DNA of 32,267 bases from Deltaproteobacteria bacterium (lineage in GTDB: Bacteria; Desulfobacterota; JADFXK01), in assembly GCA_015233625.1 (NCBI GenBank), contig JADFXK010000007.1, forward strand, positions 1-32,267, in the 5' to 3' direction. The notes beneath the pieces are model-generated. The model was given only the letters and a program-made list of their open reading frames with translations. It had not been told where the DNA came from and searched no databases. Positions 17,153 through 28,126 of the stretch are shown here, piece after piece. The stretch's first letter is position 1. Each line of letters begins with the position of its first letter. Made by a program: the position numbers and the translations under genes.

Positions 17153-18000
17153 TCAGGCCCGAAGACGAGGCACCTGACGGAGGGCCTGGCCATAATCCGG
17201 ACTCTTCTTAAATAGCACACCCAGAAAAGGCACTTTGCCCAGGGCCAGGTCTTTGGGCTTGAAGTCCGGATCCATCTTCAGGGCTCGAATCCAGTTGATT
17301 AATTCTCTGGTCGCCGGTTTTTTTTCAATCCCCGGAATCTCTCTGGTCTTGTAAAAGGTGGTAATACAGGCTTCCATCATGTTCTGATCCAGCTCGGGAA
17401 AGTGAACCCGGATAATCCGGCGCATCATTTCCGATTCCGGGAAAGCGATGTGATGAAAGTTGCACCGGCCGAGGAACGGGTCAGACAAATCTTTCTTGGC
17501 ATTTGAAGTAATAATGATCACAGGGCGATTTTTCGCTTTGACGGTTTTGTCAATCTCAATAATGTCAAATTGCATCTGGTCGAGGACATCAAGCATGTCA
17601 TCTTGAAAATCCGTATCGGCCTTGTCGACCTCGTCGATCAATAACACCACTCGCTTTCGGCCACAAAGGCCTGCCCGATTTTGCCCATCTTGATGTATTC
17701 TTCAATGTTGCTGACATCTCTTTGTGAATCGCCAAAGCGGCTGTCATTCAATCTGGTCAAGGTGTCGTATTGATAGAGGGCCTCGATGAGCTTCATGCTG
17801 GATTTGACGTTCAGAATGATCATCGGCATCTGTAACGATTCCGCGACGGCGTGAGCCAGCATGGTCTTACCTGTGCCCGGCTCCCCCTTGATCAGCAGAG
17901 GCATCTCCAAGGCGATAGAAATATTAACAATTTTTGATAATTCCCCGTCCAGTACGTATTTGCTGGCCCCGGTGAAGGCCGTGTAACCATTGCCACCCAT
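17153..18000 (-). pseudogene. MoxR-family AAA+ ATPase interrupted by a single-base frameshift
   Basis: Two overlapping minus-strand frames together give a full MoxR protein of about 282 residues. The first (17638-18000) starts after AAGGAG and contains Walker A GEPGTGKT, then runs out of frame after AFVAES into a premature TGA at 17638-17640. The second (17153-17650) continues with Walker B VVLLIDEVDKAD, the sensor region IIITSNAKKDLSDPFLGRC and the C-terminal lid. The family sequence is restored by stepping back one base at about 17653, that is, by one missing base near 17651-17656. MoxR ATPases act as chaperones with VWA proteins, such as the CoxE-like product encoded next. Everything else is well conserved, so the break is recent, a sequencing error, or bypassed by frameshifting; no classical slippery heptamer is present. 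Confidence 0.85.
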
Positions 18001-18684: not shown

Positions 18685-20757
18685 ATGCCAAAATCTCTAA
18701 AGATATATTTCTCTCTGTCTTTTTTCTCACTAGGTCTCCTGGCCGGCCTAGCAGTTGAGGCTCAGGCCCGGGTCATTCAAGTCCCGACCCAATACACCTC
18801 AATCCGGGCAGCCGTTGATGCCGCCACTCGAGGCGACACCATCGAAATAGCTGGGGGTGTATACGTGGAGTCAATTGTGTTGATGGGCAATGAAAAATCA
18901 GGGATAACGATCAAAGGCGTCGGAACGCCACCTCCGACCATTACCTCCAATGGCCAAGGCCGGGTTATCAGTATATATGAGGCTGATAATGTAAGAATAA
19001 CCGGGGTACATATAACTGGTGGCGCGACGGCCGGTCAGGATATCCAGAACTTCGGCGGCGGTATTTTTGTTGACGGATCAAGCGGGATCGAGATATCAAA
19101 TAGTCTTTTTACCAATAACAAGGCGGTCTATGGTGGCGGCCTGGCCTTTAGGGGCTCAAATGTTTCCGTGATTAATAACACTGTTCAAAACAATGCCGTC
19201 ATAGCCGCAACAAACGCATATGGAGGGGGCATGTACCTTCACGGCACCACCGGTTTGATCAGCGGCAACACCATCTCGAATAACACCACGGCCGGTCCCA
19301 ACGCCGGACCAGGCGGCGGAGTGTGCATGGTCGTGTCTTCCCCCGCCGTGACCAACAATACCTTCCAGGGTAACAAGACATCCGGCTTACAGCATTATGG
19401 CGGCGGGTTATATACTTACCAGTGTAATGGATTTTCCATTACCAACAACACCTTTACGGGAAACCAAGGACTTGACGGCGGCGGAATGGCCATTATCGCC
19501 AGCAACCCGACCATTTTCAACAACCTGTTTACGCACAATCAAGGCCGCTGGGGCGGTGGGGTGTACGGCTGGCAAATGGCATCGACCATTGACAGCAACA
19601 CTTTTACTCAAAATAACGCTTCCGATGGCGGTGGCGGTATCCTCTTTGACGGATCTTGCGGGGCTGTATTTACCAATAATACCGTCACTGGCAACCAGGC
19701 GGTGAACTGGGGCGGTGGAGTGGATTTATTTATATCCAGTTGTCGGATAGAACAAAACGTCATTACCCTGAATACGTCGGCGAGAGGTGGCGGAGTGTGT
19801 ATAACTCCCAGCAGCGATGCCCGGATCAGCAATAACTTGATCACAAATAACCAGGCTACCCTATTTGGAGGTGGGCTGGTCGTCGGAGATGGCTCCAACG
19901 GAACAATCGCGAATAACTTGTTGGCCAATAACTCAGCCACGACCCAAGGTGGGGGTATCTGCGTTTATAGCGGCCAGAATGGGGTAAGCAGCCCCAAGAT
20001 AGTCAACAATACGATCGTGAGCAATCAACTGGGGAACACGACTGACAAGAGTGCCGGTGGGGGGATTCGAGTGGGCAGTTCGACCCCCATCATTATGAAT
20101 AACATCATTGCCGGACACAGCACTGGTGGGGGGATTGGGGCTGACAATTCCGGTCCCAAGTCGTCTAACAGTTACAATAACATGTGGGGCAATAACGCCA
20201 CCTATGTGTTCGTTACGGCCGGCACAGGGGCCACAGAACTCTTTCCCGCCTTTATCGACACCCAAGGCAAGGATTATCATTTGTTGAATACCTCTACTTG
20301 CCTAAATAAAGGCAATCCCGACGCCGCCTACAACAACCCCGATGGAACCAGAAATCACATGGGTATGTATGGTGGTCCGTGGGCTGATTGGCGTCCATAT
20401 GTCTTTATTCAAACGGATAAGAATAGCTATGTCCGAGGCGCCAAAATGCGTGTGACCATTTCTGAAGGGACGATGTCAAATGCCGCCAATCTGGCCCTGG
20501 GAATCGCCCTGCTCCGGCCTAACGGCGACCTGATCTTTTACCCGCATATGTCATCTGATTTCGCACCGTGGCAAACCAATTTGACATTATCCAAGAACGC
20601 CCAAGTGGTTAATTCCACCATTCCAGGCTACGATTCGTTTCTTATTCCATCTGATTACTCAACCGGCAACTATACCTGGCTGTGTGCCTTCCTGGACACT
20701 GCCACGGGAAAAATCACCAGTCGGATTTCCAGCACCAGTTTCATGGTAACGCCTTAA
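18685..20757 (+). CDS. Secreted right-handed beta-helix (NosD/pectate-lyase-like) repeat protein
   Basis: The 690-residue protein begins with a clear signal peptide cut after AQA (residue 28). Residues about 30-525 are a right-handed parallel beta-helix made of some 20 imperfect Asn/Gly-rich coils of the type SNNxxxxNxAxxxGGG. The fold is shared by NosD, carbohydrate-sulfatase-associated proteins, polysaccharide lyases and adhesins, so enzymatic activity cannot be assumed. Residues about 565-690 form a separate beta-rich C-terminal domain (VFIQTDKNSYVRGAKM onward) of immunoglobulin-like appearance, possibly for secretion or binding. No membrane anchor or sortase motif is seen. AAAGGTGA lies just ahead of the ATG. 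A VanZ-like gene begins 31 nt downstream, and the 3' end is partly duplicated at 21499. Confidence 0.88.
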   Translation: MPKSLKIYFSLSFFSLGLLAGLAVEAQARVIQVPTQYTSIRAAVDAATRGDTIEIAGGVYVESIVLMGNEKSGITIKGVGTPPPTITSNGQGRVISIYEADNVRITGVHITGGATAGQDIQNFGGGIFVDGSSGIEISNSLFTNNKAVYGGGLAFRGSNVSVINNTVQNNAVIAATNAYGGGMYLHGTTGLISGNTISNNTTAGPNAGPGGGVCMVVSSPAVTNNTFQGNKTSGLQHYGGGLYTYQCNGFSITNNTFTGNQGLDGGGMAIIASNPTIFNNLFTHNQGRWGGGVYGWQMASTIDSNTFTQNNASDGGGGILFDGSCGAVFTNNTVTGNQAVNWGGGVDLFISSCRIEQNVITLNTSARGGGVCITPSSDARISNNLITNNQATLFGGGLVVGDGSNGTIANNLLANNSATTQGGGICVYSGQNGVSSPKIVNNTIVSNQLGNTTDKSAGGGIRVGSSTPIIMNNIIAGHSTGGGIGADNSGPKSSNSYNNMWGNNATYVFVTAGTGATELFPAFIDTQGKDYHLLNTSTCLNKGNPDAAYNNPDGTRNHMGMYGGPWADWRPYVFIQTDKNSYVRGAKMRVTISEGTMSNAANLALGIALLRPNGDLIFYPHMSSDFAPWQTNLTLSKNAQVVNSTIPGYDSFLIPSDYSTGNYTWLCAFLDTATGKITSRISSTSFMVTP

Positions 20758-20787
20758 TCCGGCGAGTCGATTGGTACTTTTTCGATT

Positions 20788-21300
20788 GTGGATAATATCA
20801 TTACTATGTCAAGCTTCAATTATACGCTGACTACCGGTAGCCGGGACTGTTGGCCGGAAAAAAAGGTCATCGGCCACTACCCAACCAGTATGAAGATTAG
20901 ACCGGGAGCATCCCAGGCATTATGGTGCGCCGTAGTTATCCTCTATGTCTGGATGCTCCCTGAGGTCACCTACCTGTACCGACTTCTGTTGCGGATTCTG
21001 TCACCCGCCCAGGTCGGCAACATCCCTGCCATATTGACCATCCTGGCCGGAATGGTCGTCTCTATCTTATTACTCACTAAATTCAGGCAGGATGGTAGCC
21101 GGATGGCCCGCCCCGGCGGGGCCCTGATCGTTTGCGCCCTGATCGCGTCAGCCATGCCTTGGTTGGAGAATCTCCCTAACAAAAACATTCATCTGGTAGA
21201 ATATGGGCTCTTCATCTTATTGATTTTGGTTCATCCGACTAAAGCGTACTTGTCCTTGCTATTGGATGTCGGTGGACAGTGTAAGGCATATGAATCTTGA
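20788..21300 (+). CDS. VanZ-like small membrane protein, possibly truncated
   Basis: The frame encodes up to 170 residues with about four hydrophobic segments. Its centre, AMPWLENLPNKNIHLVEYGLF, carries the H-x2-E-Y signature of VanZ-like proteins, integral membrane proteins of unclear role first seen in teicoplanin resistance. The usual C-terminal part, with the D-E-x2-Q motif and last helices, is missing, and the frame ends soon after in a hydrophilic tail (VGGQCKAYES), so the gene may be a remnant. The GTG at 20788 has no ribosome binding site; ATG 20806 and ATG 20890 are alternatives, so the start is unsure. It follows the NosD-like gene by 31 nt, and part of it recurs in damaged form at 21591-21671. 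Confidence 0.6.
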   Translation: MDNIITMSSFNYTLTTGSRDCWPEKKVIGHYPTSMKIRPGASQALWCAVVILYVWMLPEVTYLYRLLLRILSPAQVGNIPAILTILAGMVVSILLLTKFRQDGSRMARPGGALIVCALIASAMPWLENLPNKNIHLVEYGLFILLILVHPTKAYLSLLLDVGGQCKAYES

Positions 21301-21498
21301 CGGATACTAAGAATCACTACCCTACCCTAAAATTGGGTCCGAACATCATTATAACGACGCAGACCGAAGCAATGGTATAAACGGCTGGTGGATATATTGG
21401 GCTTTCTCATCAGTTGTCCTTGATATTGGACAAAATCAATCAACCAGAGTGTCCACCTATTATATCAAGCCATCATGTACGTAAATTCCGGATGAACC

Positions 21499-21671
21499 AA
21501 AAATATCCAGTCGGATTTCAAGCACCAGTTTCATGGTAACGCCTTAATCGGCAAGTCAATTGCTACTTTTTCGATTGTGGATAATATCATTTATCTTTAC
21601 CGATTTCTGTTGCGGATTCTGTCACCCGCCCAGGTCGACGACATCCCTGCCATATTGACCATCCTGGCCGG
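21499..21671 (+). pseudogene. Decayed, internally deleted duplicate of the NosD 3' end and VanZ-like gene
   Basis: Bases 21499-21590 match 20709-20803, including the last 11 codons and stop of the NosD-like gene and the leader and start of the VanZ-like gene, with a few substitutions and one missing base. Bases 21591-21671 then match 20970-21050 inside the VanZ-like gene. About 165 bp of the original lying between these parts is absent. No open product remains. The rest of the interval, 21301-21498 and 21672-21769, shows no gene; a 6-bp hairpin TTGTCC/GGACAA lies at 21414-21433. Confidence 0.85.
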
Positions 21672-21769
21672 GTTTTCTTTGACGATCACTTGAGGTCCGA
21701 AATCTACCGCGGCGGTCCTCAATTTCCTCTGAGTGGTGCTGTATGCATTTTCATGAGAAGGAGAAAAAA

Positions 21770-23470
21770 ATGAAAAAAACATTGTTTATCTTGATAATAC
21801 TGTTATCCGTCAGTGGCGTCCCGGTCGGTTCTTTCGCCGCTGACCCCTCTTCGGGTAGCTCACCCAGTCGATCCGCCACCGGTTATGAGTCCCTGACTAC
21901 CTACGAACTAGGCGACGTCCTTCTGGAACAGGCCCAAACCGTTTGCCAAAAACGCTTGAGTCGGGGGGAGTTGTGTGAGGTTCTGAACGCCGGTCAGGAG
22001 ACTCCAAACTTTTTGAATACTACGGCGAGAGAAGGTTTCGCTTTGTTGCTGACCTTCGTAACCGACCTGGCCCATAGTTACCACAAAAATCCCTACCTGG
22101 GCATGCGGCCGGAGATGGATGGGATTTCGGTTAAGCTTGATAAGTATCTAAGTAAACAAGAACATAATAAAGGAGCCATCTTCCTCAGGTATGCTCTGGG
22201 GTTGGTTATGGAAAAATACAACCTGAATCCTGATAAACTGGTCTTAGAATTGGTGGACGCCGCTCTGGGCGCCGTGTATCCTACTCCGCCTCGCATTTTG
22301 CCTCAGACAGAGACAATCGTAAACGCTTATTTGAATAAAGCGCTACTAGGCAACCAAACGTCTGTGGTCAAGTTTGATCTTTTCGCTACTGAAGGAAGTG
22401 CGGCGGCCTTCACTTATCTGTTCAACTCCATGAAGGCAAACAAACTAATCCGTCCTGGCGATCAGATTGCCCTGGTCACCCCCATCTATGCCCCTTACTT
22501 GGATCTGCCGGTCATGAACGAGTTTGATCTGGCCGTGATCAAACTTCAAGGTGATGCGAAAAAGGGCTGGCAATTATCTGACGTCGAAATAGACAAACTA
22601 AAAGACAGCCGGATCAAGGTGCTGCTTTTGGCCAATCCCGGCAACCCCACCGGTGTGTCTCTGGATATGGGAGTGCTGGTCAGAATAGCCGAATTAGTCA
22701 AAACAGTCAGGAAAGACTTGATTATCATAACCGACACCGGAGAGGCCGATTTTGTAGACAACTATGTGAGCTTGTTTAAACATCTCCCTGAAAATACCAT
22801 CGGAGTTCATTCTTACTCCAAATACTTTGGCGTGCCCGGATGGCACCTGGGCTTGATCATGATAAATCCAACCAACGTGGTTGATCGGCTGATCTCCCGT
22901 CTGCCGGAAGGTGACCGGTCGGAATTAGCCAGAAGATATCATTGGAAATCACTGGACCAGGATAAGATTAAGTTTATTGACAGGCTGGCCCTGGACAGCC
23001 GAGATGTGGTCTTGTCCTATAAAGGGGGCTTATCCGGACCGCAACAAGCTGTAATGTGTCTTTTTTCTATCTTTGATTTGATGGATACCGACCATACCTA
23101 CAAAAAGTCGGTTCAAAACCTGCTCAAAGAACGACACACTCAGTTATATGAGGGACTTGGTCTCCCAGCGCCACTGCAGCCCGGACAGACCCTTCTCTAT
23201 ACCCTTATTGATGTCAAGCACCTGGCCCAGATAAAATACGGTGAAGATTTTGTGAAACATCTGGCTCAAACGTCTCTGGTCGATTTCTTATTACGGCTGG
23301 CTCGGGATTACAGCACAGTCTGTCTTCCGACCAAAGGCTTTGCCGGGCCGGAATGGACTATCAGGGTCTCGTTGGTTAATCTAAATCCCGAGGAATACAA
23401 AAAAATAGGTTCCCACATCAAAGACACCTTGCAGACCATGTACAACGAATGGCCGGGCAAACAAAAATAA
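21770..23470 (+). CDS. Exported aspartate 4-decarboxylase-like (AspD) PLP-dependent protein with altered active site
   Basis: The 566-residue protein is a fold-type I aminotransferase closest in motif pattern to bifunctional aspartate aminotransferase/aspartate 4-decarboxylase (AspD). Visible features are ATEGSAAAFTYLF for phosphate binding, ANPGNPTG (288-295), the Schiff-base lysine in HSYSKYFG (K351) and a late substrate-binding arginine in WTIRVSLVNL. The pyridine-binding aspartate is D322, but AspD and aminotransferases have a tyrosine three residues on (DDVY); here the segment reads DTGE, so that Tyr is Glu325. There is also a clear signal peptide (about residues 1-23), which is atypical for this family and predicts a periplasmic or lipoprotein-like location. 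ATG 21770 has AAGGAG 6 nt upstream; ATG 21743 is less likely. Activity on aspartate is therefore uncertain. Confidence 0.85.
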   Translation: MKKTLFILIILLSVSGVPVGSFAADPSSGSSPSRSATGYESLTTYELGDVLLEQAQTVCQKRLSRGELCEVLNAGQETPNFLNTTAREGFALLLTFVTDLAHSYHKNPYLGMRPEMDGISVKLDKYLSKQEHNKGAIFLRYALGLVMEKYNLNPDKLVLELVDAALGAVYPTPPRILPQTETIVNAYLNKALLGNQTSVVKFDLFATEGSAAAFTYLFNSMKANKLIRPGDQIALVTPIYAPYLDLPVMNEFDLAVIKLQGDAKKGWQLSDVEIDKLKDSRIKVLLLANPGNPTGVSLDMGVLVRIAELVKTVRKDLIIITDTGEADFVDNYVSLFKHLPENTIGVHSYSKYFGVPGWHLGLIMINPTNVVDRLISRLPEGDRSELARRYHWKSLDQDKIKFIDRLALDSRDVVLSYKGGLSGPQQAVMCLFSIFDLMDTDHTYKKSVQNLLKERHTQLYEGLGLPAPLQPGQTLLYTLIDVKHLAQIKYGEDFVKHLAQTSLVDFLLRLARDYSTVCLPTKGFAGPEWTIRVSLVNLNPEEYKKIGSHIKDTLQTMYNEWPGKQK

Positions 23471-25354: not shown

Positions 25355-25450
25355 ATAAACAATGGCCCTCACAAGCTTCATTTATGACCGAGTCAAGTAT
25401 AAATTTCGTATGATATGATTATTCCAGGACACCACTCACCGGAGGATGGC

Positions 25451-26392
25451 ATGTCGGAAAGGGTTATCAACAGACGAGAGTTCATTTATCAGACAGGAGC
25501 CGGGTTGGGATTGGCCGCGGCCGGCTGTTTGGCCGGACCGGGGTTGCTGGGCGATGTGGTTTACGGCGGAGAGCAGCCATCCCTGGTCGAGGCATCTGGA
25601 GCGCCTGGTCCGGCTACCCGAGCTGCCGTCAAAGGCCTGGGCGGGATGGAACGATTTGTGGCCAAGGGCGCCAAGGTAGTGATTAAACCGAATATGAGTT
25701 TCAGCAACCCACCGGAAATGGCCACCACAACTCATCCGGAAGTGGTTAAGGCTCTGGTCGAGATGTGCTGGGCGGCAGGAGCGTCCAAGGTGATGGTGCT
25801 CGACCATACCCTGCGCCGGCCCGAGGATTGCCTGGAGCGCACGGGAATCCGGGCCGCCCTGGCCGGCATGCCCAAAACCCTCTTGCTGGTATTGACCGAG
25901 GAACGCTTTTTCAAAGCTATAGATATACCTAACCACCGCACTCTGCCCAGTGCCATGGTTTTCAAAGACGTCCTGGATGCGGACACGTTTATTGCGGCGC
26001 CGGTAGCCAAATCTCACAGTTCCGCCGGTGTCAGCCTGTCCATGAAGGGCATGATGGGCATAATCTATGACCGCCGGTCCTGGCATTCCAAGTACGAACT
26101 TGACTCAGCCATTGTGGATCTCGCCACAGTGATCAAGCCCAAATTGACCGTTATTGACGCCACCCGGATGCTAACCACCGGTGGTCCCGGCGGTCCGGGT
26201 GAAGTGATCAAGCCGGAAAAGGTCATTGCCTGCACGGACATGGTTGCGGCAGATGCCTACACGGTGTCCATCGGAACCTGGTACGGCAAGCAACTTGCTC
26301 CTGACCAGATTAAGCATATCAAGGAAGCCGGAGAAAGAAAGCTGGGCCGGATTGATGTCGATAAATTTTCCGTCACCAAGGTAAAGGCCTAA
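25451..26392 (+). CDS. Tat-exported DUF362 (putative Fe-S/redox-associated) protein
   Basis: This is a 313-residue protein with a twin-arginine signal, INRREFIYQTGAGLGLAAAG (RR at 8-9), so a folded, possibly cofactor-loaded protein is exported. The mature part matches DUF362: VVIKPNMSF (76-84), THPEVVKALVEM, AGASKVMVLDHT and KSHSSAGVSLSMKGMMG. DUF362 domains often accompany ferredoxin domains, but their reaction is not established. No CxxC cluster is visible in this protein. GGAGG (25441-25445) lies 5 nt before ATG 25451, so the longer frame from 25415 is unlikely. The stop TAA is followed at once by the ATG of the membrane polyferredoxin gene, so the two form an operon and presumably exchange electrons at the outer face of the membrane. 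Confidence 0.85.
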   Translation: MSERVINRREFIYQTGAGLGLAAAGCLAGPGLLGDVVYGGEQPSLVEASGAPGPATRAAVKGLGGMERFVAKGAKVVIKPNMSFSNPPEMATTTHPEVVKALVEMCWAAGASKVMVLDHTLRRPEDCLERTGIRAALAGMPKTLLLVLTEERFFKAIDIPNHRTLPSAMVFKDVLDADTFIAAPVAKSHSSAGVSLSMKGMMGIIYDRRSWHSKYELDSAIVDLATVIKPKLTVIDATRMLTTGGPGGPGEVIKPEKVIACTDMVAADAYTVSIGTWYGKQLAPDQIKHIKEAGERKLGRIDVDKFSVTKVKA

Positions 26393-28126
26393 ATGCGCTT
26401 CCAACGGTTGATTCAAACAGTCACCTTTAGTCTGTTTATCATATTGCTTTGGTCGGCCACCCTCCCTCTGGCCGGGTGGGTCCCGGTTAATCTGTTCCTG
26501 AAGCTCGACCCATTGGCGGCAGTGGGCACTTTTGTGGCGGCCCGGGAATGGGCGGCCTGGATGGGTTGGGGGGTGTTGATCCTGGCCTTGACTCTGATTC
26601 TGGGCCGTCTTTTCTGTGGTTACGTTTGCCCTATGGGCGTTACTGTGGATCTGGCCGACCGGTTGATTAAGGGGAGAGGCCGAAAAAAGGCCAAGAATAG
26701 CGGGACAAGCCGTAATTTTGATGACTGGCGTCGGCTGAAATACATGATCCTGATCGGCCTCCTGACCGCCGGCCTGGCCGGTGTGTCTTGGGTGTCCTGG
26801 TTTTCCCCTTTGTCGCTGATAACCAGATTCTACGGACTGATCATCCACCCGCTGATCCTGACTTTGGAGCGGCTGGGGCTAGCCGTTTTGCGGCCTGTTT
26901 TTCCAGTCCTGGGTCTGGACAACTGGGTTTATATCGAAATCAAGAGCCGGGTATTCAGCGCCAATATCTTCATCGCGACATTAGTCTTAGGTATTCTCTG
27001 GTTGGGAATATTTCGGCCACGCTTTTGGTGCCGATACCTTTGCCCAGCCGGCGCGCTGATGGCCCTCGGCAGCCGGAAGCCGTGGATTCGACGCCGCGTG
27101 TCTTCAGATTGCACCGATTGCGGGATGTGTCGCCGGTCCTGCCCCATGGGCGCCATTAGTGAGGATAACAAGTCAGCCGCCCACACCGAATGCCTGGCCT
27201 GCCGGAGATGCGCCGAAGTCTGTCCGGTCAAAGCGGTCTCTTTCGGTCCGGCTGCAACGGTCAGTCCAGTCACCAATCCCGCTTTGGACCTGACCCGGCG
27301 GCGCTGGCTGGGATCATGTGCCGTTGGCGCCACCAGTGCCTTTTTGGTCATGACCAACACCCACCACCCTCAGGCAGCCGGCATGCAGCATGGATTCCGA
27401 GACACCAATCTGGTCCGCCCTCCGGGAGCTGTACCGGAACCGGATTTCTTAGCCAAGTGCATCCGGTGTGGCGAATGTATGAAGGCCTGTCCCACCAATA
27501 CCCTCCAGCCCGTGTGGTGGGAAGCCGGAATATATGGGATGTTCAGCCCCAGGACATTGGCCCGTTGGGATGGGTGTGAACAAAACTGCAATCTTTGCGG
27601 CCAAGTTTGTCCCACCGCGGCCATCCGATCCTTGCCGGTGGAAGAAAAGAAATATGCCAAGATCGGCACGGCTCAAATCAATCGAGCTAAGTGCGTTGCC
27701 TGGGAACAGGACCGCAAGTGCCTAATTTGCGATGAAATCTGCCCTTACAACGCCATAGTCTTTCAACCCCATCCCGGTCAACGCATCCCCGTGCCCTTTG
27801 TCGAAGAACAAAAATGCAACGGTTGCGGTTTCTGTGAAAGTCGTTGCCCGGTGGAAGGCAAGGCCGCTATTTTTGTAGAATTTTTCGGTGAGGTCCGCCT
27901 CAGTACCGGTTCCTACCTGGCCGTAGCCAAAGAACTGGGCCTAATCTTCCAGGCCAAAGAGGGAGCCAAGCACGACGAATGGGTTGATGAGACTGACCAG
28001 TCAAAAACTCTTTCACCGGGAAAAAACGCCCCTTCCCTTCCGTCAACTCCGGAATCGTCCTCCGACCCTTATCTTGACTCCTCCCCTCAGCCAGGCAAGC
28101 TCCCTCCCGGTATTATCACCCGGTAA
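26393..28126 (+). CDS. NapH-NapG-like fusion: membrane polyferredoxin with six [4Fe-4S]-type cysteine clusters
   Basis: Residues 1 to about 225 look like NapH: four membrane spans with CGYVCP (75-80) and CRYLCP (213-218). They continue into cysteine clusters at 240-250 and 267-277 (C-x2-C-x2-C-x3-C). At 302 a second module begins with RRRWLGSCAVGATSAF, which resembles a Tat-type hydrophobic leader now internal to the protein, followed by a NapG/MauM-type ferredoxin part with clusters at 356-366, 395-406, 434-450 and 475-485. NapH/NapG move electrons from quinol to periplasmic reductases. A fusion would keep both in one protein, with the DUF362 protein encoded just before as the likely partner. 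The tail after about 530 is Ser/Pro-rich. No nitrate reductase genes are present. The ATG abuts the preceding TAA. Confidence 0.85.
   Translation: MRFQRLIQTVTFSLFIILLWSATLPLAGWVPVNLFLKLDPLAAVGTFVAAREWAAWMGWGVLILALTLILGRLFCGYVCPMGVTVDLADRLIKGRGRKKAKNSGTSRNFDDWRRLKYMILIGLLTAGLAGVSWVSWFSPLSLITRFYGLIIHPLILTLERLGLAVLRPVFPVLGLDNWVYIEIKSRVFSANIFIATLVLGILWLGIFRPRFWCRYLCPAGALMALGSRKPWIRRRVSSDCTDCGMCRRSCPMGAISEDNKSAAHTECLACRRCAEVCPVKAVSFGPAATVSPVTNPALDLTRRRWLGSCAVGATSAFLVMTNTHHPQAAGMQHGFRDTNLVRPPGAVPEPDFLAKCIRCGECMKACPTNTLQPVWWEAGIYGMFSPRTLARWDGCEQNCNLCGQVCPTAAIRSLPVEEKKYAKIGTAQINRAKCVAWEQDRKCLICDEICPYNAIVFQPHPGQRIPVPFVEEQKCNGCGFCESRCPVEGKAAIFVEFFGEVRLSTGSYLAVAKELGLIFQAKEGAKHDEWVDETDQSKTLSPGKNAPSLPSTPESSSDPYLDSSPQPGKLPPGIITR

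Follow-up and report, generated by a model that had tools for sequence, protein, structure and literature searches.

Described relatives

Aspartate 4-decarboxylases (AspD) are represented by the solved structures 2ZY2-2ZY5 and 3FDD. At four plasmid loci, as well as in the ordinary Desulfobacterota genomes sampled, an AspT-type aspartate-alanine antiporter is encoded beside aspD. Within the AspD pocket, we take Arg37 to be a substrate-side residue, and Thr382 presumably has a role there as well. Other positions can be read through the class I aminotransferases, in which seven residues are highly conserved (PMC9309667). The Arg that holds the PLP phosphate (AspD R323, aminotransferase Arg266) is known from PMC6715241 and PMC9309667, and PMC5054688, citing Graber 1999, describes the replacements Tyr225Arg/Arg292Lys/Arg386Ala as turning aspartate aminotransferase into an aspartate beta-decarboxylase.

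PLP enzymes also occur outside the cytoplasm. PvdN and PtaA of pseudomonads are periplasmic and active; they bind PLP in the cytoplasm and are exported folded by Tat (PMC6206403). For PvdN, cytoplasmic PLP binding is required for Tat export (PMC6206403). The amino acid racemase Alr of P. putida is likewise a PLP enzyme that is active in the periplasm (PMC6034422). For exported AspD-like proteins, no description was found in the open papers searched.

An AspD-family gene and its start

The window, that is, the whole 32,267-nucleotide stretch of DNA analyzed here, carries on its + strand an open frame (21743..23470) whose likeliest start is the ATG at 21770, giving a product of 566 aa. A strong Shine-Dalgarno sequence, AGAAGGAG, lies ahead of this ATG and is kept in both sister species (L006 and L057); the ATG at 21743, which begins the longer frame, has none. 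By sequence and predicted fold, the product of 21770-23470 is a protein of the AspD family. It scores 568.7 bits against NF006755 (cut-off 321) and 519.1 bits against TIGR03801 (cut-off 435.1), and its closest solved relatives by sequence are the AspD structures 2zy2-2zy5 and 3fdd (E 1e-106 or better). An AlphaFold2 model, computed from the window and locus sequences only, has a mean pLDDT of 90.9. Its best matches in the PDB are 3fdd and 2zy2-2zy5 (TM 0.84-0.87, with 36-38% identity in the fold alignment), and the top 21 are all AspD-type chains. Profile scores, model and PDB matches together place the mature AspD-fold protein at residues 24-566 (21839..23467, + strand).

The host class consists of three genomes of one genus (62-79% complete), and all three carry the gene, which in one of them breaks off after 98 residues where the contig ends. 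In a genome-wide scan, a single close orthologue turned up outside the window; the orthologue in L006 (JADFYN010000101.1) is 90% identical. The frame, the start, and the residues K351 and Glu325 named in the original prediction were all confirmed.

Signal peptides and export routes

The first 23 residues form a predicted Sec-type signal peptide (21770..21838, + strand). By inspection, n-, h- and c-regions can be made out in the N terminus, MKKTLFILIILLSVSGVPVGSFA followed by AD, with a core that is strongly hydrophobic; the cleavage site is Ser-Phe-Ala, and the predicted cut falls after residue 23 (between SFA and AD). The n-region is MKK in the window protein and MKK or MKR among such Sec-type proteins, and the same leader pattern is found in L006 and L057. 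The 12-residue hydropathy peak is 2.84, within the 2.8-3.3 seen for proteins of this type; the peaks are 1.5-1.9 in the Tat relatives discussed below and at most about 1.5 in other relatives. The signal peptide proposed at the outset remains a prediction, one that inspection, hydropathy, and the two sister species favor. Leaderless homologues sharing the same start region were looked for. The ordinary relatives examined are leaderless, with an N terminus directly before the LSPFELK motif, and because this is where the extension of the window protein stops, they do not share its start region.

A second kind of leader is found in five relatives from Desulfobacterota (L041, L063, L064, L065, and L098), which carry twin-arginine leaders with the motif SRRDFFK. 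Tat-signal models are among the best matches of these five N termini, mostly below the cut-off, with L098 just above it. The N terminus of the window protein gave no match to a Tat-signal model and has no twin-arginine motif. TatC was found in two genomes of the host genus (G001 and G002). Elsewhere in the window, a DUF362 protein (25415-28126), which adjoins a NapH-like polyferredoxin, has a twin-arginine-like N terminus, NRREFIYQTG, followed by Cys, and this suggests that the host uses Tat.

It had also been asked whether the signal peptide and the Glu form of the cofactor site always occur together. Both full-length Glu forms are indeed of the Sec type, but the five relatives with Tat signals keep Tyr, so export does not require Glu325.

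The cofactor site

Residues were mapped by alignment in AspD numbering, with roles taken from the aminotransferase papers (PMC6715241, PMC9309667); all codons given here are on the + strand. Much of the site is kept: the Schiff-base Lys, K351 (22820..22822; AspD K315); the pyridine-nitrogen Asp, D322 (22733..22735; D286); the alpha-carboxylate Arg, R532 (23363..23365; R497); and the counterparts of N253, N256, Y134 and both Ser before the Lys. Seven of these, K351, D322, N292, S348, S350, Y170 and R532, are kept in both the window protein and L006.

Other parts of the site have changed. E325 (22742..22744) stands in place of the Tyr that contacts PLP O3' (AspD Y289, aminotransferase Tyr225), a column that is Tyr in 42/42 ordinary relatives, in L042, and in all five Tat relatives. 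H359 (22844..22846) replaces the PLP-phosphate Arg, which is present in all 42 ordinary relatives. The Tyr and the Arg that are lost here both belong to the seven residues that are highly conserved in class I aminotransferases. Arg37 is replaced by Q76 (21995..21997; NAGRGNP to NAGQETP), whereas L042, the four Tat forms that are full-length, and 42/42 ordinary relatives all have Arg in this column. In the PLP phosphate loop, G174-T175 has become S210-A211 (22397..22402); the pair reads T-S in L006, so that T175 corresponds to Ala here and to Ser in the sister species. The invariant H381-T382 is replaced by Y417-K418 (23018..23023), and F204 by Y240. These changed columns are invariant in the 42 ordinary relatives, the four full-length Tat relatives and L042, and, with the exception of the T175 column, the substituted residues are the same in L006. 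L006 has in addition lost the conserved Gly two residues past the phosphate Arg (GWHLG to GWHLV).

The replacement of Tyr by Glu, on which the original prediction centered, is therefore real: E325 aligns with Y289, and a conserved Tyr was sought at this position and is absent. Since the alignment with all relatives is gap-free around E325, it leaves no room for a conserved Tyr at that position, and misalignment is ruled out. Sequencing error or a chimera is also ruled out, because the E, H and Q recur in L006, an independent MAG whose gene order is the same. However, the Glu is not the change but one of a set, together with those at R37, T175, R323 and H381/T382.

Compared with AspD (2ZY2-2ZY5, 3FDD), then, the window protein is alike in whole-length homology, in predicted fold, and in the Lys, Asp, Asn and alpha-carboxylate Arg, but it has a signal peptide and no AspT neighbor, and it differs by Tyr289 to Glu, Arg323 to His, Arg37 to Gln, Thr175 to Ala/Ser, and His381/Thr382 to Tyr/Lys. 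As regards membership among active AspD enzymes, Lys315 and Asp286 are present, and Tyr289, Arg323, Arg37 and His381-Thr382 are absent. Databases would label the protein an ordinary aspartate 4-decarboxylase, here a periplasmic one, as its scores exceed both NCBIfam equivalog cut-offs. That it acts as one is very unlikely, given the loss of residues that are invariant in the 42 ordinary and the Tat relatives and the failure to find an aspartate-alanine antiporter in the genus (genomes 62-79% complete).

A clade of probably exported relatives

In a maximum-likelihood tree, the window protein, L006, the Tat proteins and L042 are joined with support of 100/99 (100/100 in the enlarged set). Within this clade, the window protein and the Tat proteins form a closer union, but support of 88-90 / 70-77 does not make it secure, and long branches meet there; an exclusive sister relationship between the two is accordingly not upheld.

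The Tat-signal proteins share with the window protein the clade, export, and the Cys of the CLP motif (C518 in the window protein). Unlike it, they have the SRRDFFK signal, Tyr in 5/5, and a protected PLP shell, and the four full-length ones keep Arg37, the Thr, and the phosphate Arg. With Tyr kept in all five and the other PLP residues in the full-length four, these proteins are probably exported, AspD-like PLP enzymes, as judged from sequence. L042 (G323) belongs to the same clade, is 45% identical to the window protein, and has the common cysteines, but it is leaderless from its best-supported start, a GTG with a good ribosome-binding site, and its PLP residues are intact.

The cysteines at residues 430 and 518 are found in most or all of the clade and in 0/42 ordinary relatives. 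Cysteines within residues 59-69 (21943-21978) likewise occur in most of the exported clade and are absent from the 42 ordinary relatives. It is possible that these clade-specific cysteines form disulfides.

By analogy, PvdN and PtaA suggest that the Tat relatives are exported folded and loaded with PLP. Like the window protein, the two pseudomonad proteins are exported and related to fold-type I PLP enzymes, but they are analogous only to the Tat relatives, not to the window protein. The original prediction had pointed out that PLP loading outside the cytoplasm would need explaining. PvdN and PtaA provide an answer as far as the Tat relatives are concerned; for the Sec-type protein the question may not arise, because its site no longer appears to evolve like a PLP site, as described next.

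Where selection acts

Between the window gene and L006, dN is 0.049 and dS 0.336, a dN/dS of 0.145 over 566 codons, which indicates that the protein is maintained by purifying selection and the gene is functional. The loss of cofactor residues could by itself be taken for the decay of a gene without function. This is extremely improbable in view of the dN/dS, the open frame in both complete copies, and the preserved ribosome-binding site and gene order.

The constraint has an unusual distribution. A PLP shell was defined as the positions within 4 residues of the PLP-site residues, and widths of 2, 4 and 6 were also run, together with a second site list that took in only the residues mapped from papers. 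For 17 pairs whose site is intact, the ratio of the difference rate in the shell to that in the rest is 0-0.34; for the pair of the window protein and L006 it is 0.77. Of the 47 differences in the latter pair, on which alone the test is based, 8 fall in the shell, as compared with 38/827 pooled over 12 independent active-type pairs (Fisher p 0.002). The excess has the same direction at all three widths and with both site lists (Fisher p 0.00009-0.013), and is weaker when the comparison is with the least protected of the active-type pairs by itself (p 0.002-0.18). Conversely, only 4/47 of the differences lie in residues 71-200, versus 265/827 in the active-type pairs (binomial p 0.00014), a region that in active relatives is often among the more variable parts. 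In this one species pair, then, the PLP-site shell appears no longer protected, constraint having shifted off the PLP pocket. A separate count of changes at otherwise-invariant columns gave no significant excess at the PLP positions mapped beforehand (4/12, p 0.24); enrichment reached p 0.025 only when the set was enlarged post hoc, and was dropped as an argument.

Two further explanations retain a function in catalysis. In the first, the main rival to the model given below, the protein would have remained a PLP enzyme that is exported and takes up its PLP outside the cytoplasm, and whose pocket, remodeled by Tyr to Glu, Arg37 to Gln and His-Thr to Tyr-Lys, serves a new substrate or reaction. 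The Schiff-base Lys, pyridine Asp, Asn, alpha-carboxylate Arg and intersubunit Tyr are all kept, and His359 with the phosphate-loop Ser/Thr could still hold the phosphate. Alr, although of a different fold family, shows that PLP outside the cytoplasm is possible. Periplasmic PLP enzymes do exist (PMC6034422, PMC6206403), and Tyr225 is a position of reaction specificity (PMC5054688). Nevertheless, the shell is unprotected between the two species, and a Glu beside the PLP phenolate oxygen would be electrostatically unfavorable; we regard this explanation as possible but doubtful. In the second, the pocket (E325, K351, H359, Y417, K418) would have been remodeled for other chemistry that is independent of PLP. 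Several new polar residues are the same in both species, but the shell of the pocket shows no special conservation and a precedent in the fold family was not found, making this quite improbable.

The gene neighborhood

Upstream of the AspD-like gene lies a gene (18685..20757, + strand) for an exported NosD-like right-handed beta-helix protein of 690 aa (Pfam Beta_helix, NosD), a candidate operon partner. In L006 and L089, a nosD-like gene is directly upstream of the AspD-like gene, less than 100 bp away; in the window, an additional stretch of about 0.9 kb, repetitive in part, separates the two. This intergenic stretch (20709-21671) is absent in both sister genomes. It contains partial direct repeats of 85, 51 and 43 nt, including a copy of the nosD-like 3' end, and a 170-aa hydrophobic ORF (20788-21300) without a match in a Pfam search. 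A DEAD-box helicase gene lies downstream of the AspD-like gene. On the opposite strand, a MoxR-like AAA gene (17153-18000) is split into two overlapping frames that correspond to a single 282-aa frame in L006 (3182-4030), the result of a frameshift or an assembly error. No AspT-type antiporter was found near the AspD-like gene or in the three genus genomes (62-79% complete), nor in four of the five genomes of the Tat relatives.

A proposed model for the Sec-type form

Taken together, these results have led us to a model in which the window protein is a Sec-exported pseudoenzyme derived from AspD, having lost PLP catalysis and being kept for a non-catalytic role, a reading of the sequences that we consider reasonably probable. 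In this model, the protein would take the Sec route, pass through the membrane unfolded and free of PLP, and adopt the AspD fold outside the cytoplasm. Its pocket, from which the Tyr and the Arg residues on the phosphate and substrate sides have gone, would no longer serve as a PLP site. A binding or structural role would be retained, perhaps with the co-encoded exported beta-helix protein. As residues 71-200 are under the strongest constraint, function may have shifted to an interface there. The absence of PLP, the non-catalytic role, and the partnership with the beta-helix protein we infer.

In favor of the pseudoenzyme are purifying selection combined with an unprotected PLP shell and the loss of the O3' Tyr and phosphate Arg. 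TatC is present in the genus, yet the protein has no twin arginine; since Tat export of PvdN needs cytoplasmic PLP binding, leaving Tat would fit a protein without PLP as cargo. Against it count the seven PLP-site residues kept in both species, which are more than would be expected of a wholly free site, and the compatibility of Sec-type export with PLP, as in periplasmic Alr (PMC6034422). The suggestion that this is an exported, functionally shifted branch is thus supported, and a new catalytic substrate ranks as less likely than the loss of PLP catalysis. It may also be imagined that an exported PLP enzyme moved from Tat to Sec and lost its cofactor site while acquiring a new non-catalytic role outside the cytoplasm, route and cofactor dependence changing together. 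Given the insecure union of the window protein with the Tat forms and the long branches, such a switch is only a hypothesis, and a tentative one.

Although the fold and the family are known, the exported branch with its degenerate Sec form and the group of AspD-like proteins with Tat signals are probably new relative to the open papers searched. Two curated equivalog models would label a probable pseudoenzyme as an active decarboxylase. Within one clade there is a natural series, from a leaderless form with an intact site, to Tat-exported forms with an intact site, to a Sec-exported form with a broken site, and this series offers a way to test whether the export route is dictated by the loading of the cofactor. 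The window protein itself would represent a secreted, probably repurposed cousin of AspD in one deeply branching lineage of relatives of sulfate reducers.
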